Of a DNA stretch of 64,000 nt, positions 7,572 through 53,092 are shown in pieces (position 1 is the stretch's first letter; every line of letters starts with the position of its first letter). A model generated the notes under the pieces. The model made no database searches. It worked only from the letters and a program-made list of their open reading frames with translations, and was not told the origin of the DNA. The translations under genes were made by a program, and so were the position numbers. The stretch spans positions 124,001 to 188,000 of IMG/VR virus record IMGVR_UViG_3300042197_002234. One strand, 5' to 3'. The DNA is from a virus.

Positions 7572-8063
7572 ATGGAAAAGGTATTAGTTTTAAATTCCGA
7601 TTACACTCCAATAAACGTAACAACTGTTGTACGCGGTTTTGTTTTGGTAAGTAAGGGTAAAGCGGAGATATTAAAGTCTTCAGAAAACCCTATTGTAACT
7701 GGTTATCAAACATATATTAGACCTGTAATAATTAGATTGTTAACATATGTTAGATATAGGGTTAGAAATCTAAAAATTAATAGAAATCGTATTTTTAAAA
7801 GGGATTTGAATCAGTGTGTATACTGTGGTTCAAGAAAAAGTTTAACTATTGACCACGTGTTACCAAAGTCGAGAGGTGGTGATAACTCATGGACCAATTT
7901 AGTAACTTGTTGTTCGCCATGTAATAGAAAAAAAGGTGATAAGACACCTGAAGAGGCTAATATGAAACTTACTCGCAGACCTTACGAACCTACTTTATTC
8001 TCCGAAATTATAAATCCAAGTATTTCAGATGTTTGGATTGATTTTCAAAAGGATTATGTATAA
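7572..8063 (+). CDS. HNH endonuclease
   Basis: 163 aa. The HNH zinc-finger nuclease occupies residues ~80-125: CVYCG, TIDHVLPKSRGG, NLVTCCSPCNRKKGDKT (two CxxC pairs, catalytic His of DHV, Asn of TNL). The N-terminal ~60 residues (MEKVLVLNSDYTPINV) match the domain seen in a widespread family of short bacterial and phage HNH proteins. It may act as a free-standing homing endonuclease or in DNA processing. 6 bp after the last sugar gene; an intrinsic terminator follows. Confidence 0.88.
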   Translation: MEKVLVLNSDYTPINVTTVVRGFVLVSKGKAEILKSSENPIVTGYQTYIRPVIIRLLTYVRYRVRNLKINRNRIFKRDLNQCVYCGSRKSLTIDHVLPKSRGGDNSWTNLVTCCSPCNRKKGDKTPEEANMKLTRRPYEPTLFSEIINPSISDVWIDFQKDYV

Positions 8064-28777: not shown

Positions 28778-30634
28778 ATGGGAAAAATAATAGGAATTGA
28801 TTTAGGAACAACTAACTCTTGTGTTGCGGTAATTGAAGGTAAAGAACCTGTGGTTATTGCAAACAGTGAAGGTAAAAGAACCACACCTTCAATTGTAGGA
28901 TTTGTAGGTTCGGGAGAAAGAAAGATTGGTGACCCAGCTAAAAGACAAGCGATTACCAACCCTGATAAAACAATTTATTCAATCAAAAGATTCATGGGTA
29001 CTAACTATAACGAATCCAAATCTGAGATTGGTAAAGTAACTTATAAAGTGGTTAATGAAAAAAATAGTCCTCGAGTTAAAATTGATGATAGAAATTATTC
29101 TCCTCAAGAAATTTCAGCAGCTATTCTTCAAAAAATGAAACAAACCGCTGAAGATTATTTGGGTGAAAGTGTTACTGAGGCGGTTATTACGGTTCCCGCA
29201 TATTTTAACGACGCTCAAAGACAAGCAACCAAAGAGGCGGGTGAAATTGCTGGTTTAAATGTTCGTAGAATTATCAATGAACCAACCGCAGCGGCTTTAG
29301 CATACGGTTTAGATAAGAAATCAACAGACATGAAAATTGTTGTTTTTGACTGTGGTGGTGGTACTCATGATGTTTCAGTTCTTGAATTAGGTGATGGTGT
29401 ATTTGAAGTTTTATCAACAGATGGTGATACTAATTTAGGTGGTGATGACTTTGATAGAGTTTTAGTTGAGTATTTAGCAGAACAATTCAAAAAAGAACAC
29501 GGTATGGATATTTTGAAGGACACTATGGCGTTGCAACGTCTTAGAGAAGCGGCGGAAAAAGCTAAGATTGAATTGTCATCTTCGTCTCAAACCGAAGTTA
29601 ACTTACCTTATATCACCGCAGATTCTTCAGGTCCTAAACACTTACTTACAACAATAAACAGGGCTAAGTTTGAACAGTTAACTCAGTCTTTGGTTGAAAG
29701 AACCATTAAACCTTGTGAATCGGCTTTGAAAAATGCAGGTTTAAAACCGAGTGACATTGATGAGATTATTTTAGTGGGAGGTTCCACACGTATTCCAGCT
29801 ATTCAAGACGCGGTTAAAAAGTTTTTTGGTAAAGAACCTTCAAAAGGTGTCAATCCTGATGAAGTTGTTGCTTTAGGAGCGGCAATTCAAGGAGGTGTTT
29901 TAGCAGGAGATGTTAATGATGTTTTATTATTAGATGTAACACCATTGTCTTTGGGTATTGAAACTATGGGGGGTGTGTTTACTAAACTAATTGAATCTAA
30001 CACAACTATTCCAACAAAAAAATCCGAAACATTTTCAACAGCTGTTGACAATCAACCTTCAGTAGAAATTCATGTACTTCAAGGAGAAAGAGCAATGGCT
30101 AAAGATAATAGAACTATTGGTAGATTTCATTTAGACGGATTACCACCATCTATGAGAGGTGTTCCAAAAATTGAAGTAACTTTTGATATTGACGCTAATG
30201 GGATAATTAATGTATCGGCAATTGATAAAGCAACTAACAAACAACAATCAATTAGAATTGAGTCTTCTTCGGGTTTGTCCAAAGAAGAAATTGAAAAAAT
30301 GAAATTGGAAGCTGAACAAAATGCCGAATCTGATAAAAAAATGAAAGATGATGCCGATACTCTAAATTCCGCAGATTCTTTAATATTCCAAATTAACAAA
30401 TCAATGTCTGATTTTGGTGATAAATTAACTGAAGAACAAAAAATAGATATTGATACAACAATGAATAAACTTAAAGAAGCTCATTCTCAGAGAAATGTTT
30501 CCGAGGTTAAAACTTTAATGGAAGAAGTTAACACAAAATTCCAAAAAATAAGTCAGGAATTGTACAATTCAACAACAGAAACGAATGAATCTGGTTTTGA
30601 CGCATCAGATGTCGAATTTGAGGAAATGAAATAA
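28778..30634 (+). CDS. dnaK: Hsp70 chaperone DnaK
   Basis: 618 aa, full length. It has the nucleotide-binding domain ([34 protein letters not shown] with Cys and His in place of the usual Leu and Phe, VGGSTRIPA), the linker [19 protein letters not shown], and substrate-binding and lid domains. The sequence is close to Bacteroidota DnaK, suggesting capture from a host. The C-terminal tail ([12 protein letters not shown]) is shortened. It would assist folding or assembly of phage proteins. No dnaJ or grpE is visible in the window. Confidence 0.97.
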
Positions 30635-41274: not shown

Positions 41275-41949
41275 ATGAATTTAGGTAAAGATTTTAAAAA
41301 GTACGCTAAAAGTGAGTACAACTTGTCGTCAATGAATCTTCATTATTTTGGTCAACAAATTGAAGATTCCATGACACCTTACATTTTAGAGGAAAGAGAA
41401 ATGAGAGCAACTCAAATTGATATTTTTTCACGATTAATGAGAGATAGGTTATTGTGGGTTGCAGGTCCTGTTGATGATAGAATGTCAACTGTGGTTCAAG
41501 CACAACTTATGTACTTGGATTCTGTAGATTCTACCGATATTACAATGCACATTGATAGTCCAGGTGGTTCAGTTAAGTCGGGTCTAAGTATGGTTGACGT
41601 TATGGACTACATTAAATGTGATATTAGGACTGTAAACACAGGTATGGCGGCTTCAATGGGTTCTGTATTACTTGGGGCTGGAACTAAAGGTAAACGTTCT
41701 TCACTTAGATTCTCTCGTACAATGTTACACCAATCTTCAGGTGGATTCAGAGGTAATATTCAAGACGCGGAAATTGACATGGTTGAATGGAAAAAGATAA
41801 ATCAAATACTTTTTGATTTATTAGGTTCTTATTGTGGTAAACCCGCAAAACAAGTTATGAAAGACGCTAGTCGTGATTTGTGGTTGAGTTCAGAAGAAGC
41901 TTTAAAGTATGGAATAATCGACGAGATTGTAACTAACAAGAAAAAATAA
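41275..41949 (+). CDS. clpP: ClpP-like serine protease
   Basis: 224 aa from the ATG at 41275, preceded by TAGGAGA, one of the few Shine-Dalgarno-like sites in the window. Catalytic triad: Ser127 in NTGMAASMGS, His152 in TMLHQSSGG, Asp201 in ASRDLWLSSEEAL. The N-terminal ~45 residues extend beyond the ClpP core. ClpP forms a barrel protease that needs a Clp ATPase; none is seen here, so it may use the host's or act in head maturation. Confidence 0.92.
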   Translation: MNLGKDFKKYAKSEYNLSSMNLHYFGQQIEDSMTPYILEEREMRATQIDIFSRLMRDRLLWVAGPVDDRMSTVVQAQLMYLDSVDSTDITMHIDSPGGSVKSGLSMVDVMDYIKCDIRTVNTGMAASMGSVLLGAGTKGKRSSLRFSRTMLHQSSGGFRGNIQDAEIDMVEWKKINQILFDLLGSYCGKPAKQVMKDASRDLWLSSEEALKYGIIDEIVTNKKK

Positions 41950-41972
41950 AAGGGGTTAAAACCCCTTTTTTT
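41947..41972. terminator. Bidirectional terminator after clpP
   Basis: AAAAGGGGTT pairs with AACCCCTTTT around a short A-loop, with T-runs on both strands; it separates the convergent lipoprotein gene. Confidence 0.85.
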
Positions 41973-42228
41973 ATTTTAAATTACGATTAACATAAACATA
42001 AGTTATTGTATCACCAATTTTGTAGGTATTACCACGATAAGAAATCAATTCAGTTCCACAATCTGTTTTATAAGTGTATAGTGGTTCATACTCTAATGTA
42101 CTTTGACTTTGATGTTGTTTCATCTCAGTAATAACACATTTGAAAACCAAATCGTTTTTACTTATCTCATGTTTATTTTTACAAGAAAATATTAAAAGTA
42201 TTGTAATAGATGATAATAGTTTTTTCAT
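41971..42228 (-). CDS. Small lipoprotein
   Basis: 85 aa. The signal peptide with lipobox (LLIFSCKNK) ends at a Cys at residue 16. The mature part has two more Cys and a C-terminal beta region. It would be anchored in the host envelope; superinfection exclusion or lysis control are possible roles. Confidence 0.72.
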   Translation of the reverse strand: MKKLLSSITILLIFSCKNKHEISKNDLVFKCVITEMKQHQSQSTLEYEPLYTYKTDCGTELISYRGNTYKIGDTITYVYVNRNLK

Positions 42229-42271
42229 TTAACTAATATAGTTAAAATAATAAAAAGTGTCAAATTATATT

Positions 42272-42736
42272 TTACTTAATATTTGGTATGATAGTACCAA
42301 ATATGTTTCGTATATTATCACCCAGTGATTTTTTCCATTTTTGATAAATTTCATCATCTCCAACACCTGAAGTCCCCATAGTTCCTGAGGTCCCTAGCAT
42401 ACCAATAATTCCCTTAGAAGATGCGACAATATCCATATAACCTTTCGCATCATTTTCTGAATTATACTCTATAAAATAATTTTTAAAAGCACTAATTTTT
42501 TTCCATAAATCAGGATTACTTTTTTCTAAAGTTAATGGGTCAACACCATTGGTTTCATTTTTAAGTTTAACGTACATTTTGAACTTAGTACTATTAGGTA
42601 CATTTGATTTACCAACATACCATTGGTTACCATCACTATCTACTTTAGTTATTGTAGTCCCTGTTGTTGCTTCAATTAAAAATCTTCTTTCTAATAAAAG
42701 ATTTGCTTGCTCAATTGCTCTTTTTTTATTACTCAT
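42272..42736 (-). CDS. Leader-bearing hypothetical protein
   Basis: 154 aa. The leader SNKKRAIEQANLLLERRFLIEA is basic and amphipathic with an L-I-E|A site near residue 21. A Gly/Thr/Ser repeat (GMLGTSGTMGTSG) lies at about 112-124. No catalytic motif recognised. It overlaps the upstream gene by 8 bp. Confidence 0.72.
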   Translation of the reverse strand: MSNKKRAIEQANLLLERRFLIEATTGTTITKVDSDGNQWYVGKSNVPNSTKFKMYVKLKNETNGVDPLTLEKSNPDLWKKISAFKNYFIEYNSENDAKGYMDIVASSKGIIGMLGTSGTMGTSGVGDDEIYQKWKKSLGDNIRNIFGTIIPNIK

Positions 42737-43214
42737 TTTGTTTAAAAGTTTCTATGTTTATAGTTACTAAAGTTTCATATTTTCCAAAATTACCATCATG
42801 TATATAGTATATTTTAATTTCATCGGGTAATAAATTATACAGATAGTTAATATATTCATTTAATTCTTTTCTAACATCATATAATCTATCAAATAATTCT
42901 TCATCATTTCTATAATTTTCTTCCTGACCCTTTTCTTTGAAAAAAACGCTGAGAGACCCTGAATAGAGCTCACTAGGGGATTCTTGGTATAATTTTAAAT
43001 AATAATCCCTAACATCTAAATCCAAAATTTCAGATAGTTCTAAAATATCAATGAATAGATTGATGTATAATGTTGTTGAATATTTTTCAAAGTCTTTGCT
43101 AAACTCCCATCCTTTAATATATGGATTTTTTTTCTTAGTTGCGTTAATAACCATATTCAAACCTTTAATTTGGTCTTTATTAAAGTTATTATCTCTATAT
43201 GAAATTGGAGTCAT
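42729..43214 (-). CDS. Hypothetical protein
   Basis: 161 aa from the ATG at 43214 (MTPISYRDNNF). Tyr/Asp/Glu-rich, alpha/beta, with no motif recognised. Coupled to 42272-42736. Confidence 0.7.
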   Translation of the reverse strand: MTPISYRDNNFNKDQIKGLNMVINATKKKNPYIKGWEFSKDFEKYSTTLYINLFIDILELSEILDLDVRDYYLKLYQESPSELYSGSLSVFFKEKGQEENYRNDEELFDRLYDVRKELNEYINYLYNLLPDEIKIYYIHDGNFGKYETLVTINIETFKQNE

Positions 43215-43230
43215 ATTGATAAATATCAAT

Positions 43231-43260
43231 ATAAATAAAAAACCCTCGATTTAGGGTTTT
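43231..43260 (-). terminator. Terminator
   Basis: AAAACCCT (43239-43246) pairs with AGGGTTTT (43253-43260), with a T-rich tail on the minus strand; it ends the 43269-43460 transcript. Confidence 0.78.
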
Positions 43261-43268
43261 AATACTGT

Positions 43269-43460
43269 TTATCTACCTGACATCAAAACATTAATTTGAT
43301 TCATAATCCTAACCTGTAATGACTCAAGTTTTCTAATCTCAGCAATTTGATTAGGATTTAGGTCTATATTCTGACCTTTAATCTCATTAATTTTATTGTG
43401 TAATCTGGTGTGTTCATTTAATAAACTACCATACATTTCGGCTTTCTGTTGCTCTGTCAT
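43269..43460 (-). CDS. Small coiled-coil protein
   Basis: 63 aa, helical throughout (LNEHTRLHNKINEIKGQN; IRKLESLQVRIMNQINVLM), likely a short coiled coil. No family recognised. Confidence 0.65.
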   Translation of the reverse strand: MTEQQKAEMYGSLLNEHTRLHNKINEIKGQNIDLNPNQIAEIRKLESLQVRIMNQINVLMSGR

Positions 43461-43498
43461 ATTTTAAATTTAATTTTTATTTTTATTATGTAAATATA

Positions 43499-43876
43499 TT
43501 AACCCCTTTCTCGGTCAACTTTTTTAACTTCTAAGTTAAAAGTATTTTCAAACCAATCTTTAAGGAGTTTTTCAAAAATTTCAACGCCCAAAATAGAGAT
43601 TATGTTTCTAAACTCCCATTCACCATACAATAATAAAGGAACCTCGTCTTTTGTAGCTGAATCACCCTCATATTCATGATATTGTAAAACCCATTCGTCA
43701 TCTTCCCAATCCGCCTCAACATCTTTATAAAAATTAACCACATCAATATCAGAGTATCTACCTTTTTCTTGTACCCAATAATCATAACTTTTGTCGGCAC
43801 TTTCTAATAAAGAATATTCTTTCATTAAAGAGTTGAATACTGATGATAATTGATTTTGATTAATTTTTATATCCAT
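43499..43876 (-). CDS. Leader and W-x-E family protein
   Basis: 125 aa from the ATG at 43876. The leader DIKINQNQLSSVFNSLMKEYSL is a diverged member of the ITE group, with L-L-E|S following. The acidic body has YDYWVQEKG and DWEDDEWVL. The C-terminus LKDWFENTFNLEVKKVD is the clearest example of the W-[FV]-E-x3-[FL]-N signature shared with a dozen proteins downstream. Function unknown. Confidence 0.75.
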   Translation of the reverse strand: MDIKINQNQLSSVFNSLMKEYSLLESADKSYDYWVQEKGRYSDIDVVNFYKDVEADWEDDEWVLQYHEYEGDSATKDEVPLLLYGEWEFRNIISILGVEIFEKLLKDWFENTFNLEVKKVDRERG

Positions 43877-43892
43877 AACAATAAATACTTTA

Positions 43893-43922
43893 AAAAACAA
43901 AAACCCCACCTTGTGAGTGGGG
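43893..43922 (-). terminator. Terminator of the holin-like gene
   Basis: CCCCAC (43904-43909) pairs with GTGGGG (43917-43922); the minus strand continues into TTTTTGTTTT. Confidence 0.82.
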
Positions 43923-43950
43923 ATTAGGTAATTTAGTATGTAAAAATAAA

Positions 43951-44124
43951 TTAAGCCTTAGCTTTTTCAACAACTGACCAAATAGTACCAACTAGTGTAA
44001 TAACACCACCGATAATTTCAGAAGCAATTGTTTCATCAATTAGTCCTTTAGTAATTAAAACACCACCCACAAATGTTAAAGTGTGTCTTACAATTCCAAG
44101 TACTTGTTCTTTAGTTAATTTCAT
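43951..44124 (-). CDS. Holin-like small membrane protein
   Basis: 57 aa: TKEQVLGIVRHTLTFVGGVL, a hydrophobic helix, a short turn (ITKGLIDETIA) and a second helix (IIGGVITLVGTIWSVV) ending in Lys. This pattern is shared by short phage membrane proteins of marine and Bacteroidota phages and fits a class II holin. It has its own terminator. Confidence 0.68.
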   Translation of the reverse strand: MKLTKEQVLGIVRHTLTFVGGVLITKGLIDETIASEIIGGVITLVGTIWSVVEKAKA

Positions 44125-44174
44125 AATTTTGTTTTTTTTGTTACGTTTATTAGTTTTATATAAATATCTCTTAA

Positions 44175-44999
44175 CTAACTAATTTTCAATTTAGTTCTGT
44201 CATACCCCATATTTTCCCACAAATCAAAAATTTCTTCTTTAAGTTTTCTATTACTTTCCCATCTGGAATGTCCTGTAAATTTTAATTTAAAATAAACGTA
44301 TCTTTCATCTGTTGAATAAGACATTGAATGTAAAGTGTAATAGTTTGGTAGCTTTTTTATCTCGGGTCTTATTTGTGTTTTATATATTACATCAAACTTA
44401 TCTTGACCTTTTATTGTATTATATGCAATTGTTTTTAAATTACCATGAACCGCACTACCAAATTTAGTACCCATAAAATTAGTCATAAAATCTAATATTC
44501 TTTTATTATAATGTAAGTAACCCAAAAACTCTTCTTTAGATTTTAACATTTCAATATAGTCTAAAGTATATTCAAACTTAATAATGTATGGTTCGTCTTC
44601 GATAATAGTTAGTGTTACGTAATCAGGTAATTTTACTTGAGCTAAAGATAATTTGAACGCCTTTTCGTATTTTTTAGTAAACTTAACCTTTGGTTGTAGT
44701 GTTGGTAGTTTTTTAATCTTTTTATCAAAGATAAACCTACCTAATTCTATTAATTTTCTATTATTACCACCGTAAACCGTGTTTGAATAATTTATTTCTT
44801 CTTTAAACCGTTCAAAATAATTTGTAACTAAAAGCGAAAGAGGATATCTTGATGTTTTACTATCAATATTTTTTTTAATCCATTCTCGAAAAACAATAAC
44901 ACCTAATTCGAAAAAATCTTCATCATCGTATCCAGATGAATCTTCTTTGAGTATATTACTCAGTATCTTGTATTGATATTCATTAACAATTAACTTCAT
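44175..44999 (-). CDS. Leader-bearing hypothetical protein
   Basis: 274 aa. The leader MKLIVNEYQYKILSNILKED aligns with the ITE leaders (V-N-E|Y). The remainder is Lys/Tyr-rich alpha/beta with no zinc or other catalytic motif I can see. It is one of the longest of the leader group. Confidence 0.72.
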   Translation of the reverse strand: MKLIVNEYQYKILSNILKEDSSGYDDEDFFELGVIVFREWIKKNIDSKTSRYPLSLLVTNYFERFKEEINYSNTVYGGNNRKLIELGRFIFDKKIKKLPTLQPKVKFTKKYEKAFKLSLAQVKLPDYVTLTIIEDEPYIIKFEYTLDYIEMLKSKEEFLGYLHYNKRILDFMTNFMGTKFGSAVHGNLKTIAYNTIKGQDKFDVIYKTQIRPEIKKLPNYYTLHSMSYSTDERYVYFKLKFTGHSRWESNRKLKEEIFDLWENMGYDRTKLKIS

Positions 45000-45042
45000 T
45001 TAAAGTATCTATGTTATATAAATATTCAGTAAATCAAGTTTA

Positions 45043-45141
45043 TTACAATAAATAAGACAGTATAAAAGCCGTTAATCCACCACACATTAAAGCGTATATA
45101 ATATTGTCTTGGTTTTTAATTAAAAATCGTTTGTATTTCAT
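45043..45141 (-). CDS. 32-aa single-helix membrane peptide
   Basis: A short ORF, MKYKRFLIKNQDN then a hydrophobic helix (IIYALMCGGLTAFILSYLL). The ATG lies 4 bp after TATATTTG, so it is very likely expressed. Comparable with the peptide at 23551. Confidence 0.6.
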   Translation of the reverse strand: MKYKRFLIKNQDNIIYALMCGGLTAFILSYLL

Positions 45142-45145
45142 AACA

Positions 45146-45153
45146 CAAATATA
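45146..45153 (-). promoter_or_regulatory. Leaderless -7 box
   Basis: TATATTTG on the minus strand, 4 bp (TGTT) before the ATG at 45141. Confidence 0.6.
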
Positions 45154-45172
45154 AAAATAAAGTAGATAAACT

Positions 45173-45499
45173 TCAATTATTTGTGTCTATAATTTGATTA
45201 ATATATAATTCTACTTTTGGTAACCACTCATTAATCATGTATTGCAACTCACCTATTATATTATCAAATTCCTCTCTATCTGAATTTCGATACAAATCAA
45301 CATAAACTTTTATTTTACTGTAAGGAACGATTCTATCAATTATAATTTTATCAATAGAACTAAGTTCGTTGTATTCATCAATTTCACCTAACCCCCATTC
45401 TTCAGACTCTTCTCGAATAATATTTAATTGGGAGTCTATTAAACCCTGTATAATACTACTAAGTTTGTCTAATTGTTTATCGGTGATTTCAATATTCAT
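45173..45499 (-). CDS. Diverged leader-family protein
   Basis: 108 aa. The N-terminus MNIEITDKQLDKLSSIIQG follows the leader pattern with Asp in place of Glu. Acidic, alpha/beta, with a C-terminal WLPKVELYINQIID segment. Function unknown. Confidence 0.7.
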   Translation of the reverse strand: MNIEITDKQLDKLSSIIQGLIDSQLNIIREESEEWGLGEIDEYNELSSIDKIIIDRIVPYSKIKVYVDLYRNSDREEFDNIIGELQYMINEWLPKVELYINQIIDTNN

Positions 45500-45533
45500 T
45501 ACATATAAATACTTTTTATTTTAAAAACAATTA

Positions 45534-45899
45534 CTACACGTTAATAAAAGTTGCCCCTGAAACTACCGCAACTGATTTTACCTCATATTCCCTATATATG
45601 TATTTATATTCATCGATACCCTTTTTTTTCCAATATATTTTAATTTTAATATCAGGTAAAAAACTATCTAACACATCATAAAACCCAAGGTCGACAGTGT
45701 ATTCATCAATAGTCATAACTATTTTATCATCCCTCATAAACTTAAAAACAGGAGTAAATCTGTTTGGGTCATAAACCATAACAAATTCCTCTTTTATGTG
45801 TATTGAGTATTCACCATCCTTAACTCCAACAATCGGTGTTAACTCATGGTAGTCAATTTTAAACAATCTCTCAATTATAGGTATTAGTTTATCATTCAT
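45534..45899 (-). CDS. Hypothetical protein
   Basis: 121 aa, beta-rich, no motif recognised. Its start overlaps the upstream gene's stop by 8 bp (45892-45899). Confidence 0.68.
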   Translation of the reverse strand: MNDKLIPIIERLFKIDYHELTPIVGVKDGEYSIHIKEEFVMVYDPNRFTPVFKFMRDDKIVMTIDEYTVDLGFYDVLDSFLPDIKIKIYWKKKGIDEYKYIYREYEVKSVAVVSGATFINV

Positions 45900-46143
45900 G
45901 TGGTATTATTTTTCTATCCGAAAATGAATTAATGTTCACATATTCTTCATTTAAATACTCAATAATTTGTGACATTAATTCTGATTCATTTTTGGAACTA
46001 CGAATACATAATGCTAAAGCACCTGAAAGTATTTTAGCCATTTCATCTGTTGTTGTTTTTTCACCTTCAGGTAATAGTATATTAAAATAAGCTCTTTCAC
46101 CGTCGTGTTTAAAATCAACAACAATTCGTTTTGTTATTTCCAT
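45892..46143 (-). CDS. Hypothetical protein
   Basis: 83 aa: a beta hairpin start (RIVVDFKHDGERAYFNILL) and a helix with ILSGALALCIR. No family recognised. Translationally coupled to 45534-45899. Confidence 0.65.
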   Translation of the reverse strand: MEITKRIVVDFKHDGERAYFNILLPEGEKTTTDEMAKILSGALALCIRSSKNESELMSQIIEYLNEEYVNINSFSDRKIIPHE

Positions 46144-46169
46144 AGAATAAAAATAACAAAATAATAAAA

Positions 46170-46358
46170 CTATGTCAATTTTTTTAAAGACATAAGACTA
46201 GGTATAATATCCCCCAATCTAACATTTAAACTAATACCATCTTTTTTTAGTTGAACATATAGTTCAGGATTATTGGGAATGAAATAAACATTCCCTATTT
46301 CATATTTTTCTTTTTTGTAGGTTATAATCTGACCTTCAATTATGTGCGCATCTCTCAT
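46170..46358 (-). CDS. Small beta-rich hypothetical protein
   Basis: 62 aa, starting RDAHIIEGQIITYKKEKYEIGNVYFIP, a small barrel-like pattern. Divergent from 46394. Confidence 0.62.
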   Translation of the reverse strand: MRDAHIIEGQIITYKKEKYEIGNVYFIPNNPELYVQLKKDGISLNVRLGDIIPSLMSLKKLT

Positions 46359-46393
46359 GGATTATAAATATATTATTATCTATATTTATAGAT

Positions 46394-46888
46394 ATGAGAA
46401 ACATAAAATTAGAAAAAGCTTTATACAAAGTTTTTAACAATCTGTTTATAAAAGACAGACTTGATTTTTATGTTGAGGTTAAACCACACAAATTTGACGA
46501 AAATTCATATAAAATATACGTATGGTTAATTATTGACCAATCAAAATATTGGAAGAGTTCGCCAAATTATTCACAAGAATATTTTGATTTTGTTATGTCA
46601 ATTTTTGAGGGTGATACTGAAGAAACCTTTAATGAGCTGGGTAAGTATGTAATACACGATAAATTGTTTTTCACTGGTGTTTTTTACAGACTTAGTAATA
46701 GGGGCGTATACAAACCATTATTTAATTCTCTAAAAGAAATGGGAATACATTACGTAATGAAAGAAAGTTATAGATTTCCATATCCTGAAATAATTTTAGA
46801 TAAAAATATTCCTATGACAGTTGAGGATGTTCAGGAAGAATTGAATGATGAATTTAATTTAGATGATATATTAATTTACTTCGGATAA
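46394..46888 (+). CDS. Hypothetical protein
   Basis: 164 aa, alpha/beta; no leader and no motif recognised. One of the few plus-strand genes in this stretch. It converges on the leader-bearing 46871-47197 gene with an 18-bp overlap. Confidence 0.7.
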   Translation: MRNIKLEKALYKVFNNLFIKDRLDFYVEVKPHKFDENSYKIYVWLIIDQSKYWKSSPNYSQEYFDFVMSIFEGDTEETFNELGKYVIHDKLFFTGVFYRLSNRGVYKPLFNSLKEMGIHYVMKESYRFPYPEIILDKNIPMTVEDVQEELNDEFNLDDILIYFG

Positions 46889-47197
46889 TCCTTTACAACC
46901 CTCTTCGGATTTTGTTACTACTACCACAACAGTCTCAACAGGAATAAAACTCTTAACGAAATTACTAATCTTAGTTTCAATACCCGACGTAAAATATTTG
47001 TTAACTAAGGCAAGAATTACTATTGTTTCATTATTTAAATAACTTGTGGTTACCACCGCAGTATCACAAACATTTTTAGCACCTAAAAATTGTACAACCA
47101 TTTTTTCTATAGAGTCATCATACTTACCCTTTTCAATATTTTCTTTATTGAATTTGGTAATTTCAAATAATTGATTCTCAGTTATAATGATTTTCAT
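46871..47197 (-). CDS. ITE-leader protein
   Basis: 108 aa. The leader MKIIITENQLFEITKF is a near-consensus member (I-T-E|N at 5-8). The body has a beta-alpha-beta feel with hydrophobic strands (TAVVTTSYLNNETIVILALV). It lacks the W-x-E C-terminus. Confidence 0.75.
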   Translation of the reverse strand: MKIIITENQLFEITKFNKENIEKGKYDDSIEKMVVQFLGAKNVCDTAVVTTSYLNNETIVILALVNKYFTSGIETKISNFVKSFIPVETVVVVVTKSEEGCKGLSEVN

Positions 47198-47266
47198 ATT
47201 GATAAATATGACTTAAAAAGGAATTACTCTTTTTACTTGGATTATATTTATAGTTAAACTAAGTTG

Positions 47267-47689
47267 ATGAACATAATTTTAACTTTATTATTGATTTTTA
47301 GTTTAATATCGTCTAAAGGTCAGGAAATTGTTCCGTCAGTTACCGTAAATAATAAAGGTACTGCAGTACAATTATATTATCAGGAAATATTTAAGGAGGG
47401 TGATTTTAAATTTGGACCGAGAGTTGGTGTAACTTATCACCCGATAAACACAACTTGGTCACATTTTTATTGGCAAAATATTATTGAGTATAAAGGGGTA
47501 TTTTTTTCACCATTTTGGTTAAGAAGTTATAACAAATCGATTGGGTATCAAATCCCAACAACTTTGGGTTACAAAGGTGAAACAAATATCGCAGACATTG
47601 AAGTGTGGGGTAACTATGTATATCACGCACGTACTTTTGATTTACACATTGTTATCTCACCTAAAAAACAAAGAATCCCTCTTAATTAA
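47267..47689 (+). CDS. Secreted beta-rich protein
   Basis: 140 aa from the ATG at 47267. The signal peptide (MNIILTLLLIFSLISSKGQ) has a Bacteroidota-style cleavage after KGQ. The mature part has aromatic beta strands (FKFGPRVGVTYHP, YWQNIIEYKG) like a small outer-membrane or surface beta protein. Possible receptor-masking role (inference). Confidence 0.72.
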   Translation: MNIILTLLLIFSLISSKGQEIVPSVTVNNKGTAVQLYYQEIFKEGDFKFGPRVGVTYHPINTTWSHFYWQNIIEYKGVFFSPFWLRSYNKSIGYQIPTTLGYKGETNIADIEVWGNYVYHARTFDLHIVISPKKQRIPLN

Positions 47690-47760
47690 AGTTCGCACCA
47701 TCCAAGACAAACTTTACCGAATGTGATTTTTTTAACAAATTTACATAAACACTTTTTCAT
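47686..47760 (-). CDS. Possible 24-aa Cys-rich peptide
   Basis: MKKCLCKFVKKITFGKVCLG with two more residues pairs including WC; four Cys in 24 residues, very basic. A complete ORF in an otherwise empty spacer, ending in the tail of the convergent gene. No strong promoter box. Listed as possible only. Confidence 0.35.
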   Translation of the reverse strand: MKKCLCKFVKKITFGKVCLGWCEL

Positions 47761-47817
47761 ATTACATTTTTATAGATTTTTATTTTACACTTTGCAAGGT
47801 TTTTACTTTACAGATTA

Positions 47818-48183
47818 TTAATAATGGTCAACGGTTTTAACCTCTTCATTAAAATTATTTTCAAACCATTTGGCCATAACAGGTTTCCATCTATTACCAA
47901 ATAACCCAAACAGACTACTAACCAAATTTTCATCCTCAACCATTAGTATTGGTGACAATTTTTTTCTAAAATCATCATCATTGTACCAATAATCTTCTTT
48001 GTAAATACGAAAAATTGTATTGTCGTCACCATAATCACCAAGATAATATTGAATTGCATTATCTGATTCATTATACTCATCATCAATATAATAAGTGTAA
48101 TTAATATCATTAAAGTCATAATACTTGTCTAAGTAATCGACAATAACCTGAGTTAACTTATCTTCAGTGATAATAATTTTCAT
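47818..48183 (-). CDS. ITE-leader and W-x-E family protein
   Basis: 121 aa from the ATG at 48183. Leader MKIIITEDKLTQVIVD; very acidic Tyr/Asp-rich middle; C-terminus MAKWFENNFNEEVKTVD, nearly the same as in 43499-43876. A 32-bp perfect palindrome lies 15 bp upstream of its start. Confidence 0.78.
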   Translation of the reverse strand: MKIIITEDKLTQVIVDYLDKYYDFNDINYTYYIDDEYNESDNAIQYYLGDYGDDNTIFRIYKEDYWYNDDDFRKKLSPILMVEDENLVSSLFGLFGNRWKPVMAKWFENNFNEEVKTVDHY

Positions 48184-48197
48184 ATAACAATAAATAG

Positions 48198-48229
48198 TTT
48201 GTTTACAGTAAACGTTTACTGTAAACAAA
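48198..48229. promoter_or_regulatory. 32-bp perfect palindrome, probable operator
   Basis: The two 16-bp halves (TTTGTTTACAGTAAAC and its complement) are perfectly symmetric with no loop, which fits a dimeric regulator's site better than a terminator. It lies between 48266-48610 and the start of 47818-48183, where it could control the latter. Confidence 0.6.
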
Positions 48230-48265
48230 AATCCCCTCTTTGTGGAGGTAGATTATTTTTTTAAA

Positions 48266-48610
48266 TTAGTTTAAATTTATTTTTACACCACCACCTGGTA
48301 ATTCCGTACAACTCCATTTACCATTCTCAATCCCAACATTTTTCTCGTTCCATTTAGTCCAAGTACCGTCAGGTTCAAGGTCAATGGTTACACCACCTTT
48401 ATCACCAAAAGTGGCACCTTGACTTGGTATATTTTCAATAAAACTTAAAAAAGGGTAATCACCTAGTTTATATCCAGACTTAAACGTTTTAGATAACTTA
48501 TCCCAAGGAACTCTACATCCTATTGTCGTACTTTGCGACTGTTCTTCAGAAATAACTCGTTTAACAATTCTAATTAAATCTGTTTCTGTTAATCTTACAA
48601 TTTTTGACAT
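48266..48610 (-). CDS. RLTE-leader hypothetical protein
   Basis: 114 aa. The leader SKIVRLTETDLIRIVKRVIS is almost identical to that of 51940-52335, then I-S-E|E. The body is Gly-rich and beta-like (GDKGGVTIDLEPDGTWTKW). Everything after the leader differs from 51940, so the leader behaves as a module. Confidence 0.78.
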   Translation of the reverse strand: MSKIVRLTETDLIRIVKRVISEEQSQSTTIGCRVPWDKLSKTFKSGYKLGDYPFLSFIENIPSQGATFGDKGGVTIDLEPDGTWTKWNEKNVGIENGKWSCTELPGGGVKINLN

Positions 48611-48618
48611 AATATTTT

Positions 48619-48969
48619 TTATATATAAATATTAATTAAATCATCAATTTTTAATCCCAAGGGGGGGATTCCAAGATATTCCATAATGTCATCTTCAGAA
48701 TACAGTCTATCTCTATTATCTGTAATCGTGACACGTACAAAATTACTATCACCTTGATTTTGGTATAAGAATTTACCTTTAGGTGTTTCAATAACATACA
48801 TTGGGCCAAAATTATTTAAATAACGGCTTAGCATTCTTGACCTAATATAACTAAATTCTTTAGGTAATTCATATTCGTTGGTCACCATATGAATTTTATC
48901 GGTCAGGTCAATACCTAATCTGTTCTCAATGAAATTTTTTAACTTATTCTCGGTGATTATTAACTTCAT
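48619..48969 (-). CDS. ITE-leader hypothetical protein
   Basis: 116 aa from the ATG at 48969. Leader MKLIITENKLKNFIENRLG (I-T-E|N). The body has a strand pair FGPMYVIETPKGKFLYQN. It ends with a hydrophobic helix rather than the W-x-E motif. Confidence 0.75.
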   Translation of the reverse strand: MKLIITENKLKNFIENRLGIDLTDKIHMVTNEYELPKEFSYIRSRMLSRYLNNFGPMYVIETPKGKFLYQNQGDSNFVRVTITDNRDRLYSEDDIMEYLGIPPLGLKIDDLINIYI

Positions 48970-49024
48970 ACATATAAATAGCGTGAAATTAATAAACGCG
49001 GCGGGGAGGGGGTCGATTTTTAAG

Positions 49025-49120
49025 ATGAATACCAAACAACCCGAAGGGGTCGGGGACGGACGACAAAAAATATACCGACGAAAGTCGGGTTCGGTTTATG
49101 CTGCCCCATTAAAAGTATGA
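49025..49120 (+). CDS. Possible 31-aa basic peptide in a GC-rich patch
   Basis: ATG at 49025, reading NTKQPEGVGDGRQKIYRRKS and on to PLKV. It uses GGG, CGG and CGA codons, unlike any neighbour, and sits in a G-rich island (48990-49120). No promoter recognised. It may be a chance frame in a structured non-coding element. Confidence 0.25.
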   Translation: MNTKQPEGVGDGRQKIYRRKSGSVYAAPLKV

Positions 49121-49130
49121 TTTTTTTATC

Positions 49131-49304
49131 TTAATATTGTTCAAGCCAATTATTATACCACTTATCATTCCCCACATTTTCAAAAAACTCTTCTCTGTTT
49201 TTCTTAAACTCCTCAGAACATTTGGTATGAACAAAATCACCATCTCCAACATGTTCCATTAGAGATTCATTTTCAATTTCTTTTTTACAGTGAAAACATT
49301 TCAT
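49131..49304 (-). CDS. Small zinc-ribbon-like protein
   Basis: 57 aa. FHCKKEIENE with C-x2-K and a second Cys at FVHTKCSEEFK give a partial zinc-ribbon pattern (CxxC replaced by C-K-K); the C-terminal half is acidic and aromatic. Function unknown. Confidence 0.6.
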   Translation of the reverse strand: MKCFHCKKEIENESLMEHVGDGDFVHTKCSEEFKKNREEFFENVGNDKWYNNWLEQY

Positions 49305-49321
49305 AACTTATATTTTAGTAG

Positions 49322-49441
49322 TAGTCAGGACAGGATTCGAACCTGTATGAAGAGTATGTGTGTCTCTTCTCCTATGGGTTTACCTCAAGGGTTTCCACCT
49401 GCCATCGCACGTTGTAGCGTCTACCATTCCGCCACCTGACT
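49322..49441 (-). tRNA. Long tRNA-Leu-like gene, anticodon unassigned
   Basis: 120 nt on the minus strand. Acceptor AGTCAGG/CCTGACT, then TGGCGGAATGGTAGACGC, the typical Leu D-arm, and a perfect T-arm ACAGG-TTCGAAT-CCTGT with discriminator A. A 6-bp variable-arm hairpin (GAAGAG/CTCTTC) precedes the T-arm. The stretch between D-arm and variable arm is about 33 nt longer than in a normal 86-nt tRNA-Leu and contains CTTGAGG, which could be a GAG anticodon loop. It may hold an insertion. Confidence 0.65.
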
Positions 49442-49484
49442 TGAATACAAAGATAGTACAGAATTTTGAATTTTCAAAATTTTT

Positions 49485-49862
49485 TTAATACCAATGGAAC
49501 CAAACATTATTTACGTCCCAACCGTAGTGTCTCTTGGCAAACACTTTAATTAGATTATTAAAAGAATCTCTGGATGACTTATCTTTGTTAATTAAATTAT
49601 GAACATTTAAAAACGGTAAGTTTGTAGAATTAAATAAGTCATCAATAAAATTAACTCCAACATAAAACTCTTTTCTTTCCCAATCATAATAAAATAATAA
49701 GTTTTCGTCATCCTCACTATCAAATACTTCGGTATGGTCAATAGATTCAGAATAAGACTCGTAATTTTCAGGGTAAAACAAATACAATAACTTATACAAA
49801 ACATCAGACTTTTTTTCCAAGTCCAATAAATTAACTTGGTTTTCAGTTATAATGATTTTCAT
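49485..49862 (-). CDS. ITE-leader protein
   Basis: 125 aa. Leader MKIIITENQVNLLDLEKK. Acidic middle (EVFDSEDDENLLFYYDWERK). The C-terminus LIKVFAKRHYGWDVNNVWF is a variant of the W-x-E module. Its start overlaps the upstream gene's stop by 4 bp. Confidence 0.75.
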   Translation of the reverse strand: MKIIITENQVNLLDLEKKSDVLYKLLYLFYPENYESYSESIDHTEVFDSEDDENLLFYYDWERKEFYVGVNFIDDLFNSTNLPFLNVHNLINKDKSSRDSFNNLIKVFAKRHYGWDVNNVWFHWY

Positions 49863-50242
49863 ACATATAAATATGATAGTTGTAACGGGATGTTCAACGT
49901 AGGTCCATCAACTATATAAACTGGTTCGTAGTAACTCGCCTTCCTTTGTAGGGTATGTTCAACCCACTTAACTATGAGTTCTTGAACTTCAGATTCTTGA
50001 AATCCAGTCATGGATGATAAAAATGACCCAGTCATGGATGATAAAAATGATATTAAGTCATATGAAATATAACACGCGTCATCTTTATCAAACCTAATTT
50101 CAGCATATTCATCACCAATATTCTTAACAAAATAAATCCTATCTTTAATTTCCACAAGATTATAATTCTTATTGTTTAATAACATAAAGATAAAACTCTT
50201 CTTAACATCCAATTCCTGATTTTCTGTTATAATTATTTTCAT
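49859..50242 (-). CDS. ITE-leader, W-V-E family protein (paralog 1)
   Basis: 127 aa. Leader MKIIITENQELDVKKSFIF; the middle (YAEIRFDKDDACYISYDLIS) is nearly identical to 50810-51157. A short in-frame duplication FLSSMTGSFLSSMTG is present. The module IVKWVEHTLQ is followed by a different tail that includes a second, frame-shifted copy of the repeat DNA (reading TLNIP). Confidence 0.8.
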   Translation of the reverse strand: MKIIITENQELDVKKSFIFMLLNNKNYNLVEIKDRIYFVKNIGDEYAEIRFDKDDACYISYDLISFLSSMTGSFLSSMTGFQESEVQELIVKWVEHTLQRKASYYEPVYIVDGPTLNIPLQLSYLYV

Positions 50243-50338
50243 ACATATAAATATGTTAGTTATAGGGTATGTTCAACACTCAGGTTAGCCTTTACTGTTC
50301 CTTTTGGGTTGTATCTCACCTCCATTTGTAAGTTATAT

Positions 50339-50524
50339 TCAATTTTTCCCAACATTACGTCTAAGTGGTTCTTTTTTGAAGAAGTACCCTGATATATCTA
50401 CATAAGGTAATACCTCTCGGTCTCCTTCAATTGTGGTTGTACCATTTTTACCTTTTAACATCACAATTTTATATCCAAATTTGTTGGATAACCATTTGAT
50501 AAATTTTACGTGTAATCTTTTCAT
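50339..50524 (-). CDS. Small basic hypothetical protein
   Basis: 61 aa, basic N-terminal helix (KRLHVKFIKWLSNKFGYK) then a mixed part. The stop lies inside a repeat copy. No family recognised. Confidence 0.62.
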   Translation of the reverse strand: MKRLHVKFIKWLSNKFGYKIVMLKGKNGTTTIEGDREVLPYVDISGYFFKKEPLRRNVGKN

Positions 50525-50527
50525 AAT

Positions 50528-50659
50528 TTAATTTATTTTAAGTTTTTTAGTAGTAATTTTTACTGAACCGTTTGTAATTGAGTTCATAATTTTTTGACAT
50601 TCATTCCAGTTTTTACAATTAGTCAAATCTACAGTAATTAAATTTCTTTCTTTTTTCAT
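50528..50659 (-). CDS. 43-aa basic hypothetical protein
   Basis: KKERNLITVDLTNCKNWNEC then a Lys-rich end. Complete ORF 3 bp upstream of 50339-50524 on the same strand, probably one transcript. Function unknown. Confidence 0.5.
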   Translation of the reverse strand: MKKERNLITVDLTNCKNWNECQKIMNSITNGSVKITTKKLKIN

Positions 50660-50809
50660 ACAAATTTTAATTGTTTTAATATATGACAAACAAATTTACG
50701 AATAAAAACTGAATATAACAAATGATAAACAACATTAAAACGATTGTTTATCATCAGACGGTATGTTCAACTTCCAATGACAAAGGGTATAATCGAAATG
50801 TGTTGTATC
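50660..50809. other. Spacer with 11-bp inverted repeat and repeat copies
   Basis: ATGATAAACAA (50722-50732) pairs with TTGTTTATCAT (50744-50754), a possible operator. A GTATGTTCAAC copy follows at 50761. No ORF of note. Confidence 0.5.
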
Positions 50810-51157
50810 TCACCTCCATTTGTAAGGTATGTTCAACAACGGAAAATTGTCGATGTTCTTGACCATGTTGTATCTCACCTCCATTTGTAAGGTATGTTCA
50901 ACCCAGTTACCTATAAGTTCTTGAACTTCAGACCATTTAAACCCAGTCAAGGATGATAAAAATGATATTAAGTCATATGAAATATAACACGCGTCATCTT
51001 TATCAAACCTAATTTCAGCATATTCATCCCCAATCTTTTTAACAAAATAAATATTATTGTTAATCTCAATAAGATTATAATTCATATTGTTTAATAACAT
51101 GAAGATAATTTTCTTTTTAATATCCAATTCCTGACTTTCAGATATGATGATTTTCAT
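50810..51157 (-). CDS. ITE-leader, W-V-E family protein (paralog 2)
   Basis: 115 aa. Leader MKIIISESQELDIKKKIIFM. The body matches paralogs 1 and 3. The module GNWVEHTLQMEVRYN is encoded by a full repeat copy; after MVKNIDNFP a second copy is read in another frame, giving LLNIPYKWR and the stop. The duplication therefore created the present C-terminus. Confidence 0.82.
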   Translation of the reverse strand: MKIIISESQELDIKKKIIFMLLNNMNYNLIEINNNIYFVKKIGDEYAEIRFDKDDACYISYDLISFLSSLTGFKWSEVQELIGNWVEHTLQMEVRYNMVKNIDNFPLLNIPYKWR

Positions 51158-51171
51158 GTAATATAAATATG

Positions 51172-51516
51172 TTAGTTATAGGGTATGTTCAACCATGAAT
51201 CCAACTGTGCTTTTTTCAGTGGGTTGGATTTCACCTCCATTTGTAAGGTATGTTCAACCCAGTTACCTATAAGTTCTATAACTTCATGCCTTAGGAACCC
51301 AGTCATGGTTGACAAAAATGAGATAAATTTATGTGATATCAAACACGCACCATTACTTTTATTAAATCTAATATCACCTTTTTCATCCCCAATCTTTTTA
51401 ACAAAATAAATATTATTGTTAATCTCAATAAGATTATAATTCATATTGTTTAATAACATGAAGATAATTTTCTTTTTAATATCCAATTCCTGACTTTCAG
51501 TTATAATAATTTTCAT
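51172..51516 (-). CDS. ITE-leader, W-V-E family protein (paralog 3)
   Basis: 114 aa from the ATG at 51516. The first ~47 residues after the leader (MKIIITESQELDIKKK) are identical to paralog 2, while the centre (IRFNKSNGACLISHKFISF) differs. The module GNWVEHTLQMEVKSN is again followed by a frame-shifted repeat copy (SWLNIPYN). Its start codon overlaps the preceding gene's stop by one base. Confidence 0.82.
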   Translation of the reverse strand: MKIIITESQELDIKKKIIFMLLNNMNYNLIEINNNIYFVKKIGDEKGDIRFNKSNGACLISHKFISFLSTMTGFLRHEVIELIGNWVEHTLQMEVKSNPLKKAQLDSWLNIPYN

Positions 51517-52365: not shown

Positions 52366-52707
52366 TTACAAAACTTTCCCATCTATAAGAACCTCATCAA
52401 CATTAAAGTCGGATGACCAATCATAATCATACGGAAACTTATCGGGTTCACAACAATTTCCAGTTTCAACATTCATCCTTGATTCAACCCAATGTTTAAT
52501 CGGTTCTATTTTTTTCATCTCCATGGAAAGACATAAATAAATTGGTTTAAAAAAATCATAGTTCCACCAAGTGTATTTTGTTTTGGTATAATAAGATATA
52601 ACCCATTCTTTTGTTTTTGGGTTAATTAACCAAATATGATTTTCGTGACCATAGACCAAGCAATCTTTGGTCATACCATCAATCATTTTAAAAAACGCGT
52701 TTTCCAT
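52366..52707 (-). CDS. W-V-E family protein without the leader
   Basis: 113 aa. The strand-rich N-terminus (YGHENHIWLINPKTKEWV) resembles 52688-53092. IKHWVESRMNVETGNCC is the W-V-E module, followed by a Cys/Asp-rich tail. The usual ITE leader is replaced by MENAFFKMIDGMT. It overlaps the upstream gene by 20 bp. Confidence 0.72.
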   Translation of the reverse strand: MENAFFKMIDGMTKDCLVYGHENHIWLINPKTKEWVISYYTKTKYTWWNYDFFKPIYLCLSMEMKKIEPIKHWVESRMNVETGNCCEPDKFPYDYDWSSDFNVDEVLIDGKVL

Positions 52708-53092
52708 TCAACACCTCTTCCACCCGTTCCCTACTTTGGAACCAACACAGTAAAGGTGTATTCACCTTGCAATTCAACACCTCTTCCACCTCCAACTCTA
52801 AAACGATGGTAGAATAAGGAGGTGTATTCACCTTGCAATTCAACACCTCTTCCACCCACTCAGATATAATGGGTTCAAAATCATGTCGTTCAAATGAAAA
52901 CCAAACAAAAAAATTATGAAAGAATGAATGCCTCCACCATAGAGTTCCATCATTTTTATATTCAAAATACCAATACTTATTTTTCCTATCAATAAACCAT
53001 ATGGAATCATTGTATGGTATTATCTCAACCTTAGATAATTCTTTATAAAGTTTCTTGAATATAGTATCTTTTAACTTGTTTGATATTTTCAT
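52688..53092 (-). CDS. W-V-E family protein with tandem C-terminal repeats
   Basis: 134 aa. N-terminus MKISNKLKDTIFKKLYKEL. The module ISEWVEEVLNCKVNTPP is followed by two more in-frame copies, VEEVLNCKVNTP and VEEVLNGKRVF. The ATG is 4 bp after TATCATTG. The repeats make the C-terminus about 35 residues longer than in relatives. Confidence 0.75.
   Translation of the reverse strand: MKISNKLKDTIFKKLYKELSKVEIIPYNDSIWFIDRKNKYWYFEYKNDGTLWWRHSFFHNFFVWFSFERHDFEPIISEWVEEVLNCKVNTPPYSTIVLELEVEEVLNCKVNTPLLCWFQSRERVEEVLNGKRVF
52706..52857. repeat. Three tandem copies of a W-V-E-coding segment
   Basis: ATTCAACACCTCTTCCACC occurs at 52707, 52772 and 52838; the last two copies are part of a longer unit beginning AGGTGTATTCACCTTGCA. 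The unit is about 66 bp, a multiple of three, so copies add in frame to the protein at 52688-53092. Confidence 0.85.

Follow-up and report, generated by a model that had tools for sequence, protein, structure and literature searches.

What are the short repeats that crowd the 3' ends of several small genes in a large phage, and how do they come to differ from gene to gene? The window analysed here is a 64-kb stretch, bases 124001-188000 of a 195.5-kb IMG/VR record from an uncultured phage. A preliminary description had reported about nine copies of an 11-bp core within 1.4 kb, and this count holds: seven exact copies of GTATGTTCAAC and one with a single mismatch lie at 49888-51258, and a decayed ninth copy (TTATATTCAAT) occupies 50333-50343. 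The clustering exceeds chance, with 11 matches at ≤1 mismatch in the 64-kb window against 1.73 expected and 0 of 100 shuffles as high; the seven exact copies in the whole 195.5-kb record all fall inside this cluster. The core itself, however, proved to be only one end of a longer unit, a 36-bp repeat on the minus strand (GTTGAACATACCTTACAAATGGAGGTGAGATACAAC). The window repeats belong to a much larger pattern, which we found described nowhere; a literature search returned no paper describing translated CRISPR-like arrays. Some large phages thus seem to write captured, apparently foreign scraps of DNA into their own proteins.

The locus at 49.9-51.3 kb consists of three small paralogous genes (A, B and C) with arrays at their 3' ends and one orphan copy (Table 1). 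On the minus strand, each series reads repeat, 29 or 30 nt (here called the spacer), repeat, and its final copy is shortened (the shortened copies begin at 51193, 50771, 50277 and 49898). Start-to-start distances are 65, 65, 66, 66 and 65 bp, hence only 65 or 66. Gene B has two spacer units, genes A and C one each; their gene bodies are paralogous, yet the non-repeat parts of their arrays are unrelated. A further array (array 2, 52706-52856) has a different repeat and a 66-bp period, with the same 36 + 30 layout at the equivalent position of another gene. Neither the repeat-spacer architecture, nor the 65/66-bp spacing, nor array 2 figured in the preliminary description. Below, type 1 denotes arrays of the kind carried by genes A to C and type 2 those of the kind of array 2.

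Table 1. Arrays and array-bearing genes of the window (window coordinates)
Feature	Position	Strand
Gene A, array-bearing paralog, MKIIITESQ...WVEHTLQMEV...LNIPYN	51172..51516	-	
Gene A full 36-bp repeat, WVEHTLQMEV in frame	51223..51258	-	
Gene A spacer, 29 nt	51194..51222	-	
Gene A shortened last repeat GTTGAACATACCCTATAACTAA, stop in each frame	51172..51193	-	
Gene B, array-bearing paralog, end LNIPYKWR	50810..51157	-	
Gene B repeat 1, in frame	50867..50902	-	
Gene B spacer 1, 29 nt	50838..50866	-	
Gene B repeat 2, identical to repeat 1, other reading frame, gives stop	50802..50837	-	
Gene B spacer 2, 30 nt, past stop codon	50772..50801	-	
Gene B shortened last repeat, 12 nt	50760..50771	-	
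Orphan decayed full repeat, joined to truncated unrelated gene (50339-50524, immuto35A_49 homologue)	50308..50343	-	
Orphan spacer, 30 nt	50278..50307	-	
Orphan shortened repeat, runs into gene C	50256..50277	-	
Gene C, array-bearing paralog, WVEHTLQRKA...LNIPLQLSYLYV	49859..50242	-	
Gene C repeat, 81% to reference over 37 nt	49928..49963	-	
Gene C spacer, 29 nt	49899..49927	-	
Gene C shortened last repeat	49879..49898	-	
Type-2 gene, in-frame 22-aa units (VEEVLNCKVNTP + 10 variable aa)	52688..53092	-	
Array 2 repeat 1, GGTGGAAGAGGTGTTGAATTGCAAGGTGAATACACC	52821..52856	-	
Array 2 spacer 1, 30 nt	52791..52820	-	
Array 2 repeat 2, identical to repeat 1	52755..52790	-	
Array 2 spacer 2, 30 nt	52725..52754	-	
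Array 2 shortened last repeat, 19 nt, overlapping next gene's start	52706..52724	-	

The residues WVEHTLQMEV, originally read in frame in all three paralogs, are so encoded in the genes at 50810 and 51172, but the gene at 49859 reads WVEHTLQRKA instead. As had been noted, a second copy in another frame supplies the final residues (LNIPYKWR-stop, LNIPYN-stop and LNIPLQ..., respectively, for genes B, A and C) and, in two of the genes, the stop. In gene B the stop codon comes from repeat 2 and the array extends beyond it; thus, the array is not needed for coding in this gene. The gene to whose end the orphan repeat is fused has an immuto homologue of 82 aa, and the alignment here ends at residue 60. 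Similar phage records for the locus were limited to two Flavobacterium immuto phages with one small gene in common, and the exact window repeat, used as a search pattern, matched only the contig of L017. Gene C also contains a perfect 24-bp in-frame tandem duplication at 50004-50050 (FLSSMTG twice).

Relatives of the window genes were collected from IMG/VR, and 44 loci were scanned for short-range direct repeats. Repeat spacings peaked at 65, 66 and 67 bp (10, 46 and 10 cases), with further peaks at 132 and 198 bp; at most other distances the cases were single and scattered. From most of the sequence of 18 related records we drew 42 arrays with 179 units, spaced by 66 (123), 65 (9), 67 (4) or 68 bp (1). 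Arrays in the related phages reach about 9 units and were found in one gene family only. Adjacent units of the 42 arrays agree at 0.73-1.00 in columns 0-35 and at a random 0.21-0.38 in columns 36-65, the identity falling from 0.90 to 0.36 between column 35 and column 36; in the last repeat copies, similarity is gone after about 20-24 nt. A degenerate type-2 repeat pattern matched 29 stretches in IMG/VR and had 0 matches in 84,980 bacterial and archaeal species genomes, so that no host array with this repeat is known.

Type-2 repeats occupy columns 0-35 of the codon register and type-1 repeats columns 1-36; their borders lie one base apart in codon phase and enclose 36 nt in both. Since the 36 nt are kept despite the shifted phase, the borders are set on DNA and not on protein. 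In type 2, the Val codon is preceded by the last base of a codon that is otherwise free, and adjacent units agree in this base at 0.97 (G); at the opposite border, the third position of the conserved Thr codon is random (0.34). Selection on the protein cannot produce borders of this kind. The type-1 repeat and the reverse complement of the type-2 repeat are identical at 22 of 36 positions (p=5e-5 against shuffles), or at 17 of 35 when aligned in codon register, and both read GTTG...CACC. Presumably the array repeats resemble Cas13b repeats as well, a likeness that is not counted as evidence here. The shortened last copy of type 1, GTTGAGAATACCTAACTAA (e.g. L034 4531, window 51172-51193), holds stops in all three frames, as if designed to terminate inserts of any length.

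Comparison of 248 distinct spacer strings revealed pairs that agree either at background level (up to 18 of 30 positions) or almost completely (24 or more), with one pair between, and spacers of one array never exceed 15 matching positions of 30. These bimodal identities led us to reject plain tandem duplication, by which the arrays would belong to an ordinary repeat protein whose 22-aa unit combines 12 conserved with 10 fast-evolving residues and whose repeats are held uniform by gene conversion. Such an origin would fit the frame kept by type-2 arrays and the 22-aa periodicity without DNA identity of some diverged family members. It is nevertheless very improbable: almost no intermediate spacer similarity exists within or between arrays, the borders cut codons (the random Thr third base and the fixed G described above), the type-1 array of gene B goes on beyond the stop codon, and unrelated new units occur between genes that are 97-100% identical.

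Spacer lengths of 30, 29, 31 and 32 nt occur 306, 15, 9 and 1 times. The spacers of type-1 arrays measure 29, 30 or 31 nt (17, 12 and 11 cases); lengths of 27, 28, 32 and 33 nt are absent, and two outliers measure 18 and 26. As the type-1 last copy can hold stops in all frames, lengths there are little affected by frame selection, and their spread looks like a physical ruler rather than codon steps. The composition of the spacers is not that of the phage. Their G+C is 0.33-0.47 versus 0.30-0.33 for the phage genome, their third-position G+C about 0.34 versus 0.19 in ORFs of one array-bearing phage, and their G+C is 0.40 versus 0.33 for the same 30 nt in unrepeated paralogs. No protospacer was found at the DNA or peptide level in 2.8 Mb of phage DNA, none that was convincing in a phage collection (one 29-nt match at E=0.3), and a plasmid search with nine spacers gave one 21-nt match only, at chance level; these searches covered small or biased collections.

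The arrays are read as protein, and selection acts on both their reading frame and their amino acids. In the gene frame, 3 of 123 30-nt spacers contain a stop versus 62 expected, and the other two frames of the same spacers contain stops in 44 and 80; among first spacers of type-1 genes, stops occur in 4 of 31 versus 14.6 expected. Near-identical spacers differ synonymously at 19 of 37 differences, against 9.5 expected, and spacers may be more coding-like in frame than random capture followed by a stop filter would give, a point against capture. The region upstream of the arrays is likewise gene body and not a non-coding leader. Selection on frame and amino acids argues against the notion that the units serve as guide-RNA arrays or as RNA decoys (mini-CRISPR or Racr-like) for a host Cas effector, with translation incidental. 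That notion draws on two features shared with Flavobacterium II-C/VI-B (PMC8092290), the 36/30 geometry and the GTTG ends, and on the existence of virus-borne mini-arrays and RNA anti-CRISPRs (PMC6858448, PMC10651486). Type-1 and type-2 repeats are, however, apparently opposite in orientation relative to the gene, and the protospacer searches above speak against guides as well. Nor was a conserved RNA hairpin seen across repeat types, although some genuine class 2 CRISPR repeats are likewise weakly folded; overall, we regard an RNA-level role as improbable.

Orthologous arrays differ by whole units, in genes whose bodies are mostly 97-100% identical and are often followed by downstream DNA of 94-100% identity. 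In one example, s007 s008 s009 s010 s011 s012 s013 stands against s129 s008 s009 s130 s131 s010 s011 s013. The copies are thus not fixed and identical in all relatives, and the comparison across related phages that the preliminary description had called for yielded variants in both copy number and junctions. Its proposal that copies reshape and extend C-termini, the locus being a diversity generator, is supported; copy numbers vary in relatives, and the junctions fall exactly at repeats.

The turnover is polarized. Across four ortholog groups, shared spacers follow one acyclic order, private spacers make up 11 of 33 at the gene side versus 1 of 37 at the far end, and ortholog pairs have the last spacer in common in 26 of 37 cases and the first in 4 of 37. 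In 13 of 47 arrays the two gene-side repeats match completely, as do 12 of 169 other pairs (permutation p=0.0007; as ortholog groups are few and contigs related, p-values are indicative). Reverse-strand copies of some type-2 arrays had entered the scans; clear ones were excluded from the repeat-pair test, and in the few that are left the reversed order counts against the reported gradient. Since both the private spacers and the most similar repeats lie at the gene side, the arrays grow at the gene-proximal repeat, as CRISPR arrays do at the leader. Some private spacers sit within arrays, which calls for numerous losses or for insertion at internal sites in some cases.

Arrays belonging to different genes also exchange spacers, in L039 (where s005 and s045 meet at position 2295) and in L184, and s077 occurs in two genes of L059. 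Recombination between copies, as originally proposed, therefore does occur between arrays, but the view that it is the main source of their diversity is not supported. It cannot supply new inserts; the spacers are unrelated rather than diverged duplicates, and gain at the gene side in one conserved order, 36-nt borders and non-phage G+C stand against it too. Capture has one main rival, the recombinational shuffling of units drawn from unsampled phages. In this view, each paralog combines a conserved 36-bp helix/strand segment with a 30-nt loop that is hypervariable; unequal recombination at the repeat would string together loops from many paralogs and from phages that co-infect, with no new DNA being captured. 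The exchanges just described are in line with this, as are spacers that are coding-like and under purifying selection; in type-1 genes, moreover, the shortened final copy codes for an end that looks native (LRIP/LNIP), so that gene anatomy could account for one repeat pair. Against shuffling, no other sampled array offers a source for most new spacers, and lengths are 29/30/31 rather than steps of three; spacer G+C and third-position composition are unlike those of phage genes, and neither the polarity nor the youngest-repeat gradient is predicted. We consider shuffling unlikely, yet less so than any of the other rivals.

In contrast, we lean towards CRISPR-type arrays that grow within coding genes by polarized capture of ~30-bp foreign DNA through a Cas1-Cas2-like integrase. 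Searches found no Cas1 in 33 phage records and no Cas2, reverse transcriptase or tyrosine recombinase in 21. A phage-encoded CRISPR system was rejected, with neither Cas1 nor Cas2 in the phage records and with HNH_4 matches that represent a nuclease of ~165 aa and not Cas9. (The window itself carries a small HNH endonuclease gene at 7572-8063, whose domain PF13395 occurs in 13 of 21 related phages.) As no Cas1-Cas2 was found in the phages, the integrase is probably the host's. In F. columnare, the type II-C and VI-B loci have 36-bp repeats and acquire new spacers of 28-32 bp, mostly 30; Flavobacterium II-C/VI-B repeats have GTTGT at the leader-distal end, and the II-C Cas1 serves another array in trans (PMC8092290). 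The reverse complement of the type-2 repeat has GTTGT at its start too, on the side opposite to growth, and together with the Flavobacterium-like geometry this makes a host Cas1-Cas2 the most likely agent of insertion. What weighs against capture is chiefly that no protospacer turned up in the searches above; the lack of Cas1 and Cas2 in the phage records, of the type-2 repeat in the bacterial and archaeal genomes and of a conserved hairpin, together with the restriction of arrays to one gene family, counts against it as well.

In the mechanism that we propose, the 3' end of the phage gene family (last helix and strand, WVExxLxxKVxxT) would offer 36 bp as a site of insertion. The integrase, which would work like Cas1-Cas2 and is probably the CRISPR adaptation complex of the host, would target the gene-proximal repeat, insert ~30 bp of foreign DNA there and duplicate the 36 bp, each event adding 66 bp (22 codons) beside the gene body. 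Old repeats at the far end would decay, and recombination between repeats would remove units. Insertions that stay open would be retained and translated into hypervariable, probably unstructured protein tails. The sequences themselves show the architecture, the exact borders, the gain and loss of units, the polarity, the selection on frame and amino acids and a composition unlike that of the phage; which enzyme acts, where the inserts come from and what they bring, diversification of tails, we infer. More tentatively, the gene family may have evolved a landing site where host CRISPR adaptation or an unknown phage integrase writes ~30-bp scraps of foreign DNA into proteins in frame, yielding protein diversity and perhaps diverting spacers from host arrays.

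An AlphaFold model of a 244-aa type-2 protein, built on a shallow alignment, predicts residues 1-88 as folded (pLDDT about 80), ending with the WVEEVLN helix, and the array-encoded part as disordered. The model had no significant PDB match, its structural matches were uncharacterised viral proteins only, and none of the family and fold searches pointed to a function for the array-bearing proteins. Many small genes of the window begin with a short basic/hydrophobic leader containing [LI]xE (MKIIITE, RLTE, IISE, RILRE; e.g. 46871, 48266, 49485, 51940, 54111, 57059, 58231 and 60021), a motif enriched at positions 3-8. A T4-like prohead protease (PF03420) is encoded in 6 of 6 records tested; hence, the leaders may be T4-type capsid-targeting sequences, and their proteins, type-1 array genes included, may be packaged in the head and injected. 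Elsewhere, the window encodes a full-length DnaK-like protein of 618 aa (28778-30634; phage-encoded, going by sequence only) and contains a perfect 32-bp palindrome, TTTGTTTACAGTAAAC/GTTTACTGTAAACAAA (48198-48229), just upstream of the gene at 47818; a very long collagen-like G-x-y region with a period of 9 nt and multiples spans about 41500-50600 of G000:C1 (L010).

What CRISPR-style acquisition is known for is the storage of memory for guide RNAs. In these phages, arrays with CRISPR geometry and polarity lie inside genes, and the acquired DNA is open in frame with its amino acids under purifying selection. If host Cas1-Cas2 makes them, phages have turned an immune-recording step into a generator of protein diversity or a sponge for spacers; otherwise, there may be an unknown integrase that uses the same ruler. 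In both cases, short DNA that is taken up in cells during infection by uncultured large phages would be recorded in the arrays.

Like CRISPR arrays, the phage arrays consist of direct repeats that are nearly identical and constant in length, with unique spacers whose length hardly varies; they also grow in a polarized way, the youngest repeat and spacer lying at one end and the terminal repeat being decayed. They differ in that the phage genomes showed no cas genes, array and 'leader' are coding, and the repeats have no conserved RNA hairpin; therefore, we do not file them as CRISPR arrays. A close parallel is with the Flavobacterium II-C/VI-B arrays (PMC8092290), by the 36-bp repeat, ~30-bp spacers, GTTG end, polarized growth and decayed terminal repeat, but the phage arrays stand in the translated 3' end of a gene, use coding sequence as 'leader', are selected for frame, and come with no cas genes, protospacers or conserved hairpin that we could find. 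Diversity-generating retroelements likewise diversify the C-terminal part of a phage protein, and integron cassette arrays are likewise polarized with repeats between units. We rejected both, as the 21 records hold no reverse transcriptase and no tyrosine recombinase; the inserts are whole, unrelated 30-nt sequences and not point substitutions, and the units are of fixed length without genes. Virus-borne mini-CRISPR arrays (PMC6858448) and RNA anti-CRISPRs (PMC10651486) are also short, cas-less repeat-spacer units in viral genomes; these have been described as RNA elements akin to host repeats, whereas the phage arrays are translated and multi-spacer, and their type-2 repeat has no match in the bacterial genome collection (84,980 species). 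Finally, off-target or ectopic Cas1-Cas2 integration (e.g. PMC7999890) would yield repeat-spacer units outside the normal leader-proximal site, as seen here, but in these phages it would be recurrent, directed at phage genes and selected as protein.
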